Of a DNA stretch of 64,000 nt, positions 25,146 through 47,814 are shown one piece after another; within the stretch, counting starts at the first letter, position 1; each line of letters starts with the position of its first letter. The notes under the pieces were generated by a model. That model was not told the origin of the DNA. It saw only the letters and a list, made by a program, of their open reading frames with translations, and did not search any database. The stretch is from Flavobacterium marginilacus (lineage in GTDB: Bacteria > Bacteroidota > Bacteroidia > Flavobacteriales > Flavobacteriaceae): contig NZ_CP113975.1 of NCBI RefSeq assembly GCF_026870155.1, positions 124,001-188,000 on the forward strand. The letters run 5' to 3'. The position numbers and the translations under genes are program-made.

Positions 25146-26453
25146 TTATCCCGTTTTGGAAACCAAAGTTGCGGTAATAAACAGTTTTTCTTCTTTGCTG
25201 TATTCTAATTCGATTCCCTTTAAAATGTGTTCAGAATCGATTATTGTGGTGTTTTGGTCAAGTGTCTGCAAGCAGGCGAAAGCCATCGCTGAAACTATTT
25301 GGGCACCATTGAGTTCATAATTTTTAGCAGCTATCTCTAGAATGTTATGATCTTTTAGTTTTGTTTTCTTAGGCATACAATTCTCCCATAATTGCAAACG
25401 TTCTTCGGCTGTAGGTTTGTTAAAATGAATAATGAAATTGAATCTTCTTAAAAAAGCATCATCAATATTATTTTTGAAATTGGATGTCAGTATTACTAAT
25501 CCATTAAAATTTTCGACTCTTTGTAATAAGTAACTAACTTCCTGATTGGCATATTTATCATTTGAAGATTTGGTTTGTGTCCGCTTGCCAAACAGTGCAT
25601 CAGCTTCGTCAAAAAGGAGAATCCAATTTTTGTTTTCGGCCTGAACGAATATTTTTTCCAGATTTTTTTCTGTCTCGCCAATGTATTTGGACACGACTTG
25701 TGATAAACTGATGCGGTAGACTTCTTTCCCGAATTCTTTTCCCAATAAAGTAGCAGTAAGTGTTTTTCCAGTTCCCGATGGACCATAAAATAAACACCGG
25801 TAGCCAGGAGCAATCTGCTTGGACATTCCCCAGTCATGACGCAATTGATCCTGATGTTTTAGCCAAAGTTTAATTTGGCTGATCTGATCCTGTGTATTCT
25901 GATTTACAACTAAGTCTTCCCATTGCATTTGTGTTGTAATCTCCTGAGCAGGAAAGTTTGTGCCAAATTTTGGTTTTAATTTTTCGCCATAAAACAAAAG
26001 ATGTACTACTTCTGGAGGTAAAATAATACGGCCGCTCATTAAGGGTTCTCCTTCTTTTACATCTTCCAGAAATAAAATATTCTCTTTGCAAAACCAATGT
26101 GAAGGTGAAAATAACTGCTGTATTTCTAATCGATAATTGATATCTTCTTTTGCTAAAACATATTGTGCAGTTTCGCCTGTAGGAAGCATTCCTCTATGAT
26201 TCTCAAGTCGGATTCCTCCCAATTCAGGGAGTTCACCACCATCAGGATAAATTTCTTTTATGATTTCGTCAAAAAAATGAGGGAGGATATTTGGCACTAA
26301 TGCCAAAAGTAAAATGACCGCTTCCTCATGTGTCGTTGTATGACCTAAAGCTTCGGAAAAAGAGTTGTCGAAATTATAGGAAACAGGTTCTTCGACACTT
26401 TCTAAAGGACGAAGGGACTGGATAAGGAATGATTTCAGAATTTGGAATGGCAT
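25146..26453 (-). CDS. eCIS AAA+ ATPase (Afp15/Pvc15-like)
   Basis: A 435-residue protein, last gene of the contractile-injection operon. An N-terminal helical region (about 1-200) precedes an AAA+ domain with Walker A GPSGTGKT (224-231), Walker B ILLFDEAD (278-285), a sensor LTSNF and an arginine-finger-like [11 protein letters not shown]. Related ATPases in eCIS loci are thought to help remodel, load or assemble cargo and tail; purified particles do not contain them. The gap to the cargo gene upstream is 30 bases, consistent with cargo handling. Confidence 0.9.
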
Positions 26454-26483
26454 GTTTTATTTTTTAAATCTATAATTTTGAAA

Positions 26484-29400
26484 CTACTCTGTGTAATCGC
26501 CATGACTATAATCCAATCCATTAGAAAAATGGTCGGTTTTTGTAACTTTAGTATTTGGATCTTCTTTTTTCCAAGAAGAGAATTCATAATTTATTACCGA
26601 TGGTGTTTTTTCTTCCATTTCGATAATTTTTTTTCTTTTGGCAGACAAATTAGCAGGTTGATTTTTTACAGTATTTCCGCCATAAATAGGAGTTACTTTA
26701 TAATTGATTACTTTATCATCAGCTAAATCTTTTTTTACAGTTTCTTCGATACCAACATTATGATCTTTGTTTCCTTTTCTGGTTAGAGGTGTTAGATTCC
26801 TAAAATCATTACCGCTGCCTCCCAGATTATGATTTAACAAATGCCCTAAAATGTAATAAGTCGAACTTCCATTTCGTTTTTTCTTCAATGTTTCATAGCC
26901 AGCATTGGTAACTCCCGGTACAGATCCTGTAGGAGGTTTTGTTGTTTTATGAAGATTCTTCACCTCCATGCTTGTTCCAAAACCATTTTGTAATGATCCA
27001 AAAGTAAGTTCAAATTTTCCTATGCTTTCCATATTAAAAAGCGGAATCATATGATTGCTTAATTTATTGACATGATCTGTAACTACCTCATATTTTTCGG
27101 TTTGTTCTGTTTGATATTTTTCAGACCCTTTGGCAGATTTATTCTTTTTAGAAATAGCGGCCTTCAGCAGATTAAATTCAGCCTGAGCATTTTTTTTGGA
27201 TTCTGTTTTTTTGGCATCTGTTTTTCCTAATTTGCTTATAAATTTAGCAAAAGTAGCAGGCGTGCTGGCCACCATTAATTCAGCATTTTCTTCAGTACCT
27301 TCAAAATAAAGGCTATGCGAATGCCCATCTTCGGTTTTAAATTTCTTTTTGATACTAAAAAAGCTCATCAGTTTTTTTACTCCGGCTTTTCCGGCTTTAA
27401 ATAGCGTTTTTACAACTGACCCCGCTTTTTCGAGCACCCAGTCGATGGCCTTATTAATAGGAGCCTGTATTTTATCAAGTAAAGCTTGTACTTTTTTACT
27501 TAAATCTCCAAGACCTAACAATCCTGCCAGAAAACCAATGGCTATAGGAACTAGTTTGGCCAATGAATTTTCTACAAATGTGGCGGCTTGGGTAATTTTT
27601 CCAGCTACAATCAATGCGGTACTATCGACAATACTGTTTATTAAATCCAGTATTCGTCGGGCATTATTGATAAACCAGCTAATTACATCATAAATGAGTT
27701 TACAGGCTTTTATAAAAGCGCCCACCGGATTGAACAAACTGATAACCCAGGTAATTCCTGCTTTAATTACGGTTTCGATAAGCATATTTTGTATGGCATC
27801 TACTACCATGACTTTGAGATCGCCTATTTTTTCCTTGATAAAATTCCATAGTCCGGCAAGACCTTCCTTTCGGATGATTTGAAAAATTTCGAAACCAGTT
27901 TCTAATGCAGCTACTACAGTTGCACCATACATCTTAGTAGCTCTGGCTTTAATGTTTTCCCAAGTAAGGCCAAAAACCGACATTATGAATTCAAAAATTC
28001 CGCTTAAATCCCATTGTTTCGGGAATTTTATTGATGGAGGCATGTTTCCCATCAGCCATTCAAAAAATCCTTTTTTGAGATGTTCTAATGCATTTTTGCC
28101 AAAATTTTTGAAACCCAAAACAATTGCATCCAGTAAATTGGATAGAAAACCAATAGGATCCAAAATTATTTTTCCTACCACATCTGCCACTTTTGCTAAT
28201 ATGTTAAGCAGCAGATTTTTCATTTCTATTATTGCTTTGATTACCCCGACAACAGCATCATAAGCACGTTCCAGCCAGCTTTTGTTTTCTTCTTGTATTT
28301 TGTCAAAAGTTTCTTCTAATTTGGCAACGGCAGCATTAAATTTGGTAGTAATACTTTGTTTGAGTCCCTCATTAGCTTCCTCTACCTTGGAGTCAAGTTC
28401 TGTAAATCTATCAGTGGCATGTGCAAAAACATCGCCTGCAATTCTCTGCGTGTCCTTATCCTGATTTTTCCAGTAATTTTGAGTTTTGAGCTTCCCATCT
28501 TCAATGTCTTTGGTAGCTTTATTCAATTCTTTTTCGACAAAATCACCAATTTTACGCACTACAGGCGCCAGCGAATTGATAAAATTATCCTGCTCTTCTA
28601 TAAAAACTTTCTTGATATCATTTGGAATTCCGGCAGCCCAATTGGCTAAATCTTCCAGCCAGTTAGTATCAGTTCTTTCTTTTACATTTTTTTCAAATGC
28701 TTTGTTGGCAATATCCAGTGCTTCATCAAAATCCTTATTTACTTTTTCGGTCAGGTTTTTTAGGTTGGTTTCAACTAAAAGCTTGGTGTCATCATAGATT
28801 TTATTTAAATCTGCTGCGACTTTGGTTCTAATCTCTTCCTCTTTTTGCTTTTTAAGTTCTTTATTTTTATCGACCTGACTTAATTGTTTATTTCGGGTTG
28901 CATTCATTTTAGCCAGTCCTCCTAAAGTAAGAGCATTGGTACTGCTTTTTGCAGAACCTGCAATGGGATTTGCTGATTTTAAATACTGCTGATGGGTGCC
29001 GGCTGCTTTTTTCTGGCTTTCTTTTTTCTCGGTTAAAGAATGGTCAAAAGCGGGCTCATTACCATTTTGGAGTTGTGTTTCGGAAATATCATTATTAGCC
29101 AATTCATCATCTATCTTTTTAGAATCGGAAGAAAGATCGTTGTCCTGTGCAGTTTTTAGCGGTGGCGCAAAACCAGGATTGGAAACAGTTGGATAGGCTC
29201 CAATATCTTCTTTGGGTAATGGAACAGCGACTTTTGTGACAACACTATTCTGATCTGGACTAGCACTAACGGAATTAGATAAATCGCCATTTGTATTTTG
29301 TTTTTCTTTTTCTAAAGTATCTGTAATACCTTGTTGTGCATTGCCCATTTTTTCAGAAGAAGTCTGGTCTTTCTCCATTTCTTCTTTGTTTTTGGGAATC

Positions 29401-47095: not shown

Positions 47096-47139
47096 GACTT
47101 ATTATTTATTGGTTTTTAAAAATTATTGGAATATTAATT

Positions 47140-47814
47140 TTAATCTAATAGAAAGGAACTGGCTTCTATTTCCCCCGTTATATCACTTTTGTCATTAGTC
47201 CATAATTGGGCTTTTGCATTGTTGATGACAGGATCCGTTGGCAGGCTGTTTTCATTTTGTATGCGGATCATCCGCATGGAGTATAATACTGAGGGCATAT
47301 ATCTGCTTCCCAGATAAGACCACATCTGATTGAGATGTTCTGGCTTCAGGCTTACCAGATCTAATATGATTTTATTCATAGACTTAGCCTGATTTTCAGA
47401 AACTTCGGTTTGTTCAAACAAATTAGTAGTATCATAATAAAACACATTGTTATACTGAAGGCATTTGATGATGTATTCTAATTTGTCAAGACCTTCTGCA
47501 TATTTTGCCTGATCTTTATTGTACGAAGTAAACAATAGAGACAAAATCAGATTTTGAGCAGGTTTTTTGTATTTTTCAATGGAGCTGCCATTTCCAGAAT
47601 ATTCTTTGTATAGACTTTGATTTTTTAGTGTTTTGTCTTCTTCAATATTTACTACAGAAAGGATCATTGAAGATTTTTCCTGTATAAAATTATCTCCGTC
47701 ATTTAATGTGGCAACATTTGTCAATTCGATACTTACGGCAACTCCATTATTCAATACAGCAATTTCAGTAGTGATTTTTTTGCAAAGTTTGTCTAGTATC
47801 TTAGTTAAATTCAT
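47140..47814 (-). CDS. Tail terminator/cap protein, DUF4255 (Pvc16/Afp16-like)
   Basis: A 224-residue protein. LTKILDKLCKKITTEIAVLN, then FIQEKSSMILSVVNIEEDKT, then LILSLLFTSYNKDQAKYAEG match the DUF4255/Pvc16 N-terminal domain, which closes the distal tail end. It is first in the operon. Its start lies 261 bases from the divergent ileS. A weak AATATTTG -7-like box is at 47859-47866 on the minus strand. Confidence 0.88.
   Translation of the reverse strand: MNLTKILDKLCKKITTEIAVLNNGVAVSIELTNVATLNDGDNFIQEKSSMILSVVNIEEDKTLKNQSLYKEYSGNGSSIEKYKKPAQNLILSLLFTSYNKDQAKYAEGLDKLEYIIKCLQYNNVFYYDTTNLFEQTEVSENQAKSMNKIILDLVSLKPEHLNQMWSYLGSRYMPSVLYSMRMIRIQNENSLPTDPVINNAKAQLWTNDKSDITGEIEASSFLLD

Follow-up and report, generated by a model that had tools for sequence, protein, structure and literature searches.

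What kind of particle is encoded by the 16-gene block between recO and ileS in Flavobacterium marginilacus, what does it carry, and how is its chromosomal site occupied in related genomes? We examined these questions in a 64,000-nucleotide stretch of the forward strand (RefSeq assembly GCF_026870155.1, contig NZ_CP113975.1, positions 124,001 to 188,000), hereafter the window, in which positions are counted from the first letter. The ORF listing places 16 open reading frames on the minus strand of window 25146-47814, with recO and ileS on either side. Nearly all tested features agree with an extracellular contractile injection system (eCIS) of the AlgoCIS type (contractile injection system, CIS, subtype Ib), and we consider it likely that the operon encodes such a particle, working as proposed below. 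A sequence-only reading of the same DNA had already proposed an eCIS, and an AlgoCIS-like operon inserted between recO and ileS is the best reading of the data presented here. The kind is already known and the operon is a further member of it; eCIS of Flavobacterium, sometimes two or more per genome, are mentioned in the available passages of PMC8213781.

Pfam and PDB matches assign the core contractile parts to the 16 one-strand genes (Table 1), as the sequence-only reading had claimed. In order of transcription, the operon encodes a cap, a sheath, two gp19-type tube proteins, a DUF5908 plug peptide, a CIS_tube hub, a spike and a PAAR protein, followed by gp25, a Baseplate_J wedge, a second wedge, a crown/tail-fibre protein, a 238-amino-acid (aa) protein (p238), a tape measure, an 1105-aa protein and an AAA+ ATPase. 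Names and roles mostly follow the AlgoCIS paper (PMC8894135). With AlgoCIS of Algoriphagus machipongonensis, the operon shares the single sheath, plug, CIS_tube hub, spike, PAAR, gp25, Alg11/Alg12 wedges and a crown-type fibre, which in AlgoCIS (Alg19) binds cells. In contrast to AlgoCIS, a separate small fibre gene is present, one payload without DUF4157 replaces two DUF4157 cargo proteins, and no counterpart of the cap adaptor Alg16B was assigned among the 16 genes. The crown protein has 832 aa rather than the 1443 and 1476 aa of its counterparts, and their long C-terminal extension is absent. The operon had also been called complete, which stands for the core parts but neither for the cap adaptor nor for a peptidoglycan-binding/CHAP gene that relatives carry at this place. 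Of two proteins which could not be named earlier, the 1105-aa protein indeed has no Pfam match above cut-off and no PDB relative, but it is assignable as likely payload, and p238 as a probable small fibre.

Some assignments need comment. The cage of the Alg11-type wedge is recognizable at the sequence level, since residues 443-989 align to residues 410-991 of the 7aeb chain, covering about two thirds of its cage domain (residues 278-643). Chain a of 9wt0, titled "PKD domain-containing protein", is inferred to be Alg19 because 9wt0 also contains an Alg12 chain. The true start of gp25 probably lies about 11 codons inside the listed reading frame, since alignments of relatives begin at residue 8-12. 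A LysM part of the Alg7-type hub would be expected from its position alone.

The sheath, the only PF04984 match in the whole genome, scores best with AlgoCIS (405.8 bits), followed by Anabaena (378), the 9r9h group (361), Pvc3 (222.5) and Afp3 (200.6); these are pairwise match scores with PDB chains rather than a tree, and the panel did not include the sheaths of metamorphosis-associated contractile structures (MACs) and of the type VI secretion system (T6SS) subtype iv. Within the genus, sheath identity amounts to 98% with Flavobacterium sp. HJJ, 89% with F. aquariorum and 87% with F. taihuense. A T6SS of subtypes i-iii is disfavored, as VipB (PF05943) has no match in this genome. However, the control was positive only in E. 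coli among 14 genomes, which makes this negative less secure for a divergent T6SS of Bacteroidetes. TssJ, TssL and TssM are absent from the Pfam results of the 16 operon genes, to which the search for them was confined. The MACs of Pseudoalteromonas luteoviolacea belong to clade Ib and possess a cage according to parts of PMC8894135, although no MAC sequence entered our comparison. The Anabaena system 7b5h, anchored in thylakoids (passages of PMC8894136), is strongly alike in both wedges and the crown protein, which here lacks the long extension; thylakoids are not expected in this host.

The operon appears intact. Compared with a single relative, F. taihuense (G228), the ratio of nonsynonymous to synonymous substitution rates (dN/dS) is 0.01-0.20 for all 16 genes, values which are rough because dS is near 1 and synonymous sites are close to saturation. 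All 16 genes are under purifying selection and none looks decayed. The tubes, spike, payload and gp25 change most slowly; p238 has the highest value (0.20), ahead of the plug (0.13), the tape measure (0.12) and the cage wedge (0.11). Along the cage wedge, identity to G291 and G228 reaches its minimum around residues 250-600 (56-80% in blocks of 50 residues); dips at 101-200 and 601-700 are smaller (66-90%), and the other blocks show 80-96%. The middle of the tape measure (approx. residues 250-300) is 42-48% identical to the same two relatives, its C-terminus 91-94%. Since the same gene order and content were found again in related genomes and dN/dS is low, the operon is not a chance assembly. 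Its G+C content (0.348) gives no sign of foreign origin when compared to the flanks (0.353 and 0.356). Between cap and ileS, one −7-like box was found on the operon strand, without a full match to the Bacteroidetes promoter pattern.

The payload was approached through its relatives. Among the 7992 best scored candidates, 151 homologues of the 1105-aa protein were detected at E≤0.001, and many of the 120 that were listed contain a domain of PF13930 (the DNA/RNA non-specific endonuclease family) or of PF13699 (DUF4157, the eCIS core). PF13930 exceeded its cut-off in six of ten scanned family members (P0045, P0047, P0049, P0055, P0060, P0087) and remained below it in four, including the window's own protein (P0001; also P0046, P0072, P0080). 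Two of three scanned relatives of 93% identity have Endonuclea_NS_2 at the C-terminus, and the GHLLNHNLGG...NLTPLT stretch of 93%-identical relatives is retained in the window payload, whose nuclease-type motif begins at residue 986. Compared with the payload of HJJ (P0049), the strain with the 98%-identical sheath, residues 1-800 are 98% identical, while the remainder drops to 10-55% per 20 residues. A swapped C-terminus on an otherwise preserved protein is a hallmark of polymorphic toxins; thus, judged by sequence, the payload follows this pattern of a conserved carrier with an exchanged C-terminal third. The C-terminal module is probably a nuclease cleaving DNA or RNA, and a nuclease toxin is what the operon's syringe would most likely deliver. 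The payload's basic N-terminus fits, by unscored comparison, the polar eCIS leader described in passages of PMC11297309. The payload gene has no adjacent immunity gene, its neighbors being the ATPase and tape measure genes.

In contrast to the DUF4157 eCIS-associated toxins described in parts of PMC8213781 and PMC11297309, the payload lacks DUF4157. No place in this genome (G000) matched DUF4157/eCIS_core, and neither did G228 nor G291, while the same search was positive in the other five of eight genomes. As the particle features are kept, we count this absence as a cargo variant. At the other extreme, G156 has 10 DUF4157 matches, nine of them on its eCIS contig (C17, partly covered by L069 and L070), which amounts to a large cargo set. 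A nuclease effector of MACs, Pne1, has reportedly been described by Rocchi et al. According to passages of PMC6748791, it is suggested that Pne1 lies outside the tube lumen.

For p238, structure models point to a small fibre in which the anchor is probably conserved and the head evolves faster. A putative helical anchor (residues 1-42) precedes a predicted knob-like head (approx. 43-203). Fold searches with models of p238 and of a 19%-identical homologue were both headed by adenovirus fibre heads, the knob match being strong for the homologue and weaker for p238 itself; this concerns a predicted fold only. Both models contain two N-terminal helices, predicted with lower confidence. Compared with G228, the anchor is 93% identical and the rest 64%. 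Positive selection on p238 as a whole was not seen against G228; dN/dS is 0.18 in the head and 0.26 in the C-terminal tail. The eBAP2 mini-fibres (available passages of PMC12923769) would be comparable, being short fibres whose anchor measures about 50 residues and whose head is small, encoded downstream of the wedge genes. The same passages compare their heads with PDB 6E1R and describe Afp13 as knob plus shaft, whereas a shaftless knob head as predicted here does not occur in the passages covered.

In the three compared relatives whose eCIS likewise occupies the recO-ileS site (G309, G291, G228), a 17th gene of 272-273 aa is situated between ATPase and recO, with PG_binding_1 at 45-52 bits (cut-off 23) and CHAP near its cut-off (23-27 bits versus 26). 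This gene has no match at E≤1 in the F. marginilacus genome, while the same query was positive in the genus search. At E≤1e-5, matches occur in 24 of 150 genus genomes, 12 of them full-length (that of G346 composed of two overlapping pieces) and 12 restricted to a short CHAP part. The full-length gene is present in 12 of 23 sheath-positive genomes and in none of the 127 others (hypergeometric 8e-12, ignoring kinship). Ten of these 12 copies follow a sheath gene on the same strand at a distance of about 20-25 kb downstream, whereas that of G258 is located elsewhere and that of G346 on another contig. Among the 11 sheath-positive genomes without a full-length match, the operons were read in G000 and G222. 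The peptidoglycan-binding/CHAP gene is therefore an accessory gene of many, not all, related operons. A release enzyme, a wall-breaching part and an antibacterial payload are all possible roles; an eCIS-associated toxin predicted to hydrolyse peptidoglycan is mentioned in passages of PMC8213781. No lysis gene was found among the Pfam results of the 16 operon genes, and holins were not searched genome-wide.

Other explanations were weighed against a free AlgoCIS-type particle. The particle could be anchored in the producer's membrane and fire on contact, like the Amoebophilus T6SSiv or the Anabaena thylakoid system, with which cage and crown are shared. Both wedges score slightly better with Anabaena 7b5h than with AlgoCIS chains, the crown protein matches both, and AlgoCIS, MACs and T6SSiv form one clade (according to parts of PMC8894135). 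However, the sheath scores best with AlgoCIS, and a simple hydropathy scan detected nothing membrane-like in the short crown protein (versus 1476 aa), although it gave weak segments of this kind in wedge 2, ATPase and payload. Altogether, we regard a membrane-anchored device as unlikely. The operon might also encode a conventional R-type tailocin or the tail of a defective prophage, with which it would share tail fold families, but the CIS-specific families CIS_TMP, CIS_tube, Pvc16_N and DUF5908 are present. No capsid family was found using Pfam on the 16 genes and PHROGs on 10 of them, in line with the earlier statement that a phage head gene is absent. Further, none of the 343 phage records with a sheath match covers 80% of the query, and all are below 60% identity; this origin is thus disfavored and has hardly any probability left.

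The particle could also act within the producer population, in regulated cell death as in Streptomyces, without dedicated release. The lack of a lysis gene in the operon's Pfam results, the missing peptidoglycan-binding/CHAP gene and the absence of an immunity gene beside the putative nuclease are in favor of this. On the other hand, two fibre-type proteins are kept, and p238 changes fastest of the 16, mostly outside its anchor, which suits surface recognition outside the cell; action among sister cells is accordingly an improbable explanation. As to p238, it might instead correspond to Alg16B, since this cap adaptor is the only structural part of AlgoCIS that otherwise lacks a gene here. The size is similar (238 versus 284 aa), and Alg16B likewise has an Ig-like domain plus helices (passages of PMC8894135). 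However, a 19-sequence p238 profile found no PDB chain at E≤10, fibre heads lead both fold searches, the gene follows that of the crown fibre, and a fixed N-terminus is joined to a variable remainder. The cap adaptor is disfavored by the missing profile match and the fibre-head fold, and we consider this assignment unlikely; the small fibre of an AlgoCIS-type particle is preferred.

The recO-ileS junctions of related genomes were compared as well. That recO and ileS are neighbors in flavobacteria, as the sequence-only reading stated, was borne out in 120 of 150 genus genomes, where the two share a contig and an orientation and are no more than 40 kb apart; their spacing is <1 kb in 72, 1-15 kb in 42 and 15-40 kb in six. 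In the remaining 30, the genes are on different contigs (19) or otherwise arranged (five), G281 was outside the recO listing, and five had no ileS entry in the table (two with partial matches, which were excluded). An eCIS occupies the interval in four of the 150 (G000, G309, G291, G228). In HJJ, ileS also adjoins the cap gene (L036, the only locus covering its operon, with 19 kb ending inside the second wedge gene). G254 (recO 93% identical) has an empty site with 294 bp between recO and ileS. In G309 (recO 95% identical), identity is 84% for the ATPase and 38-81% for the other matched parts; nothing there matches the payload, and its cargo region belongs to the DUF4157 type. The recO-ileS interval, with its occupied, empty and diverged versions, is a hot spot of insertion. 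Read most simply, the eCIS would have entered once in an ancestor, G254 would have lost it or never acquired it, and most of the operon would have been replaced either in G309 or in the other lineage. The window contains no tRNA, and therefore no tRNA-type insertion site.

Other inserts are present in G284 and G269, genomes without a sheath match, in which 22.0 and 15.7 kb separate recO and ileS. The G309 operon (L055, approx. 4500-18000) may be partly decayed, because its wedge 2 gene is split over two reading frames and one of three DUF4157 matches contains TAG. Around the operon in the window, IleS (1134 aa) shares 93% identity with its counterpart in G263, although recO of that genome reaches only 78%. 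With G228, G291 and G309 (IleS of 1155 aa), IleS identity is 89-90%, whereas that of recO is 93-95%. Since IleS and recO identities point to different relatives, recombination at ileS is possible. In the window, porZ and recO are separated by a YhcG/DUF1016 nuclease gene (23397-24410), of which a second one is present at 13961-14947; they directly adjoin in G309, G291, G228 and G254. The window further contains a transposase gene (DUF772/DDE_Tnp_1, 10054-11121) and a Flavo-1 RNA (15976-16053, minus strand, 55 bits).

Table 1. Features of the operon and its flanks, in window positions.
Feature	Position	Strand	Evidence or remark
ileS, right flank	48076..51480	+	tRNA-synt_1 400 bits
Cap, Alg16A/Pvc16_N type	47140..47814	-	Pvc16_N 90 bits; AlgoCIS cap chains 9wt1_A 1.3e-13, 7adz_0A 2e-13
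Contractile sheath, 652 aa	45137..47095	-	Phage_sheath_1C 47.6 bits, Phage_sheath_1 34.5 bits; 7adz AlgoCIS sheath 2.7e-120, Anabaena 7b5h 7e-112
Inner tube protein 1	44631..45071	-	Phage_T4_gp19 147 bits
Inner tube protein 2, tube initiator at Alg5 position	44168..44626	-	Phage_T4_gp19 112 bits; role from gene order
Plug peptide, Alg6/DUF5908	43962..44135	-	DUF5908 52 bits; 7aef_t Algo6 E 0.005, residues 1-57 (full length)
CIS_tube hub protein, Alg7 type	43195..43965	-	CIS_tube 152 bits
Central spike, Alg8 type	41521..43188	-	Phage_base_V 75.5 bits
PAAR spike tip	41221..41514	-	PAAR_motif 89 bits
gp25-like wedge/sheath initiator, Alg9	40805..41248	-	GPW_gp25 76.7 bits
Baseplate wedge with cage-type extension, Alg11, 1032 aa	37661..40759	-	Baseplate_J 25 bits (cut-off 21); 7aeb chain G 1.6e-82
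Baseplate wedge 2, Alg12	34654..37656	-	7b5h All3315 (Anabaena) 6e-114; AlgoCIS Algo12 8.5e-106
Crown/tail-fibre protein, Alg19/All3314 type, 832 aa	32049..34547	-	9wt0_a 7e-46 over 7-535; 7b5h All3314 1.1e-39
Probable small fibre ("mini-fibre"), 238 aa (p238)	31308..32024	-	Structure models and fold searches
Tape measure protein	29845..31308	-	CIS_TMP 305 bits
Likely payload, 1105 aa	26484..29801	-	Homologues with Endonuclea_NS_2 or eCIS_core/DUF4157
Putative replaceable C-terminal effector module of payload, residues ~800-1105	26484..27404	-	Identity drop versus P0049; motif list
AAA+ ATPase, Alg15 type	25146..26453	-	AAA 98.9 bits
Junction ATPase/recO where same-site relatives carry the peptidoglycan-binding/CHAP gene	25124..25145	.	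22 bp only
recO, left flank	24407..25123	+	RecO_N, RecO_C

Most part identities, the intactness and purifying selection, the exchange of the payload C-terminus, the predicted knob-like fibre fold and the versions of the site are computed results. From these and from related systems, the following working is proposed. The particle would assemble in the cytoplasm on plug, spike and baseplate, as in AlgoCIS, with the tape measure setting tube length and the AAA+ ATPase assisting, as family knowledge suggests. The 1105-aa protein may enter the tube via its basic N-terminus. Exit would presumably occur through cell lysis, although the operon has no lysis gene among its Pfam results. Outside, the crown protein and the small fibre with its predicted knob head, perhaps together with the cage of the large wedge, would grip the target. 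Sheath contraction would then push the tube into it, where the C-terminal module, to judge from related sequences probably a nuclease cleaving DNA or RNA, would act.

More tentatively, and with some doubt on our side, the eCIS operons of Flavobacterium may be modular weapons, both ends of which are re-equipped within short periods. Their elements would be a DUF4157-free carrier whose C-terminal nuclease is swapped among near-identical strains, a shaftless knob-headed fibre whose head drifts while the anchor stays fixed, replacement of most of the operon at recO-ileS, and a terminal peptidoglycan-binding/CHAP enzyme for release or wall breaching, lost here in a strain which manages without it or uses another means of lysis. 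In the literature covered, mainly at the level of titles and abstracts and with many subscription journals outside it, we found no account of these particular arrangements, whether for a cell-wall hydrolase in eCIS release, for eCIS of Bacteroidetes or Flavobacterium, or for a knob-headed eCIS fibre. Closer attention is warranted for the DUF4157-free payload and its exchanged C-terminus, for the small fibre with its shaftless knob-like head, and for the accessory peptidoglycan-binding/CHAP gene.

The operon bears on how eCIS leave the producer and on what they carry. The recO-ileS site offers a natural comparison within one genus, being empty, occupied or filled with another operon, with or without the peptidoglycan-binding/CHAP gene. 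The payload suggests that DUF4157 is dispensable for cargo in this clade. Surveys of eCIS toxins lean on this domain as a mark (passages of PMC8213781) and could therefore miss this payload family.

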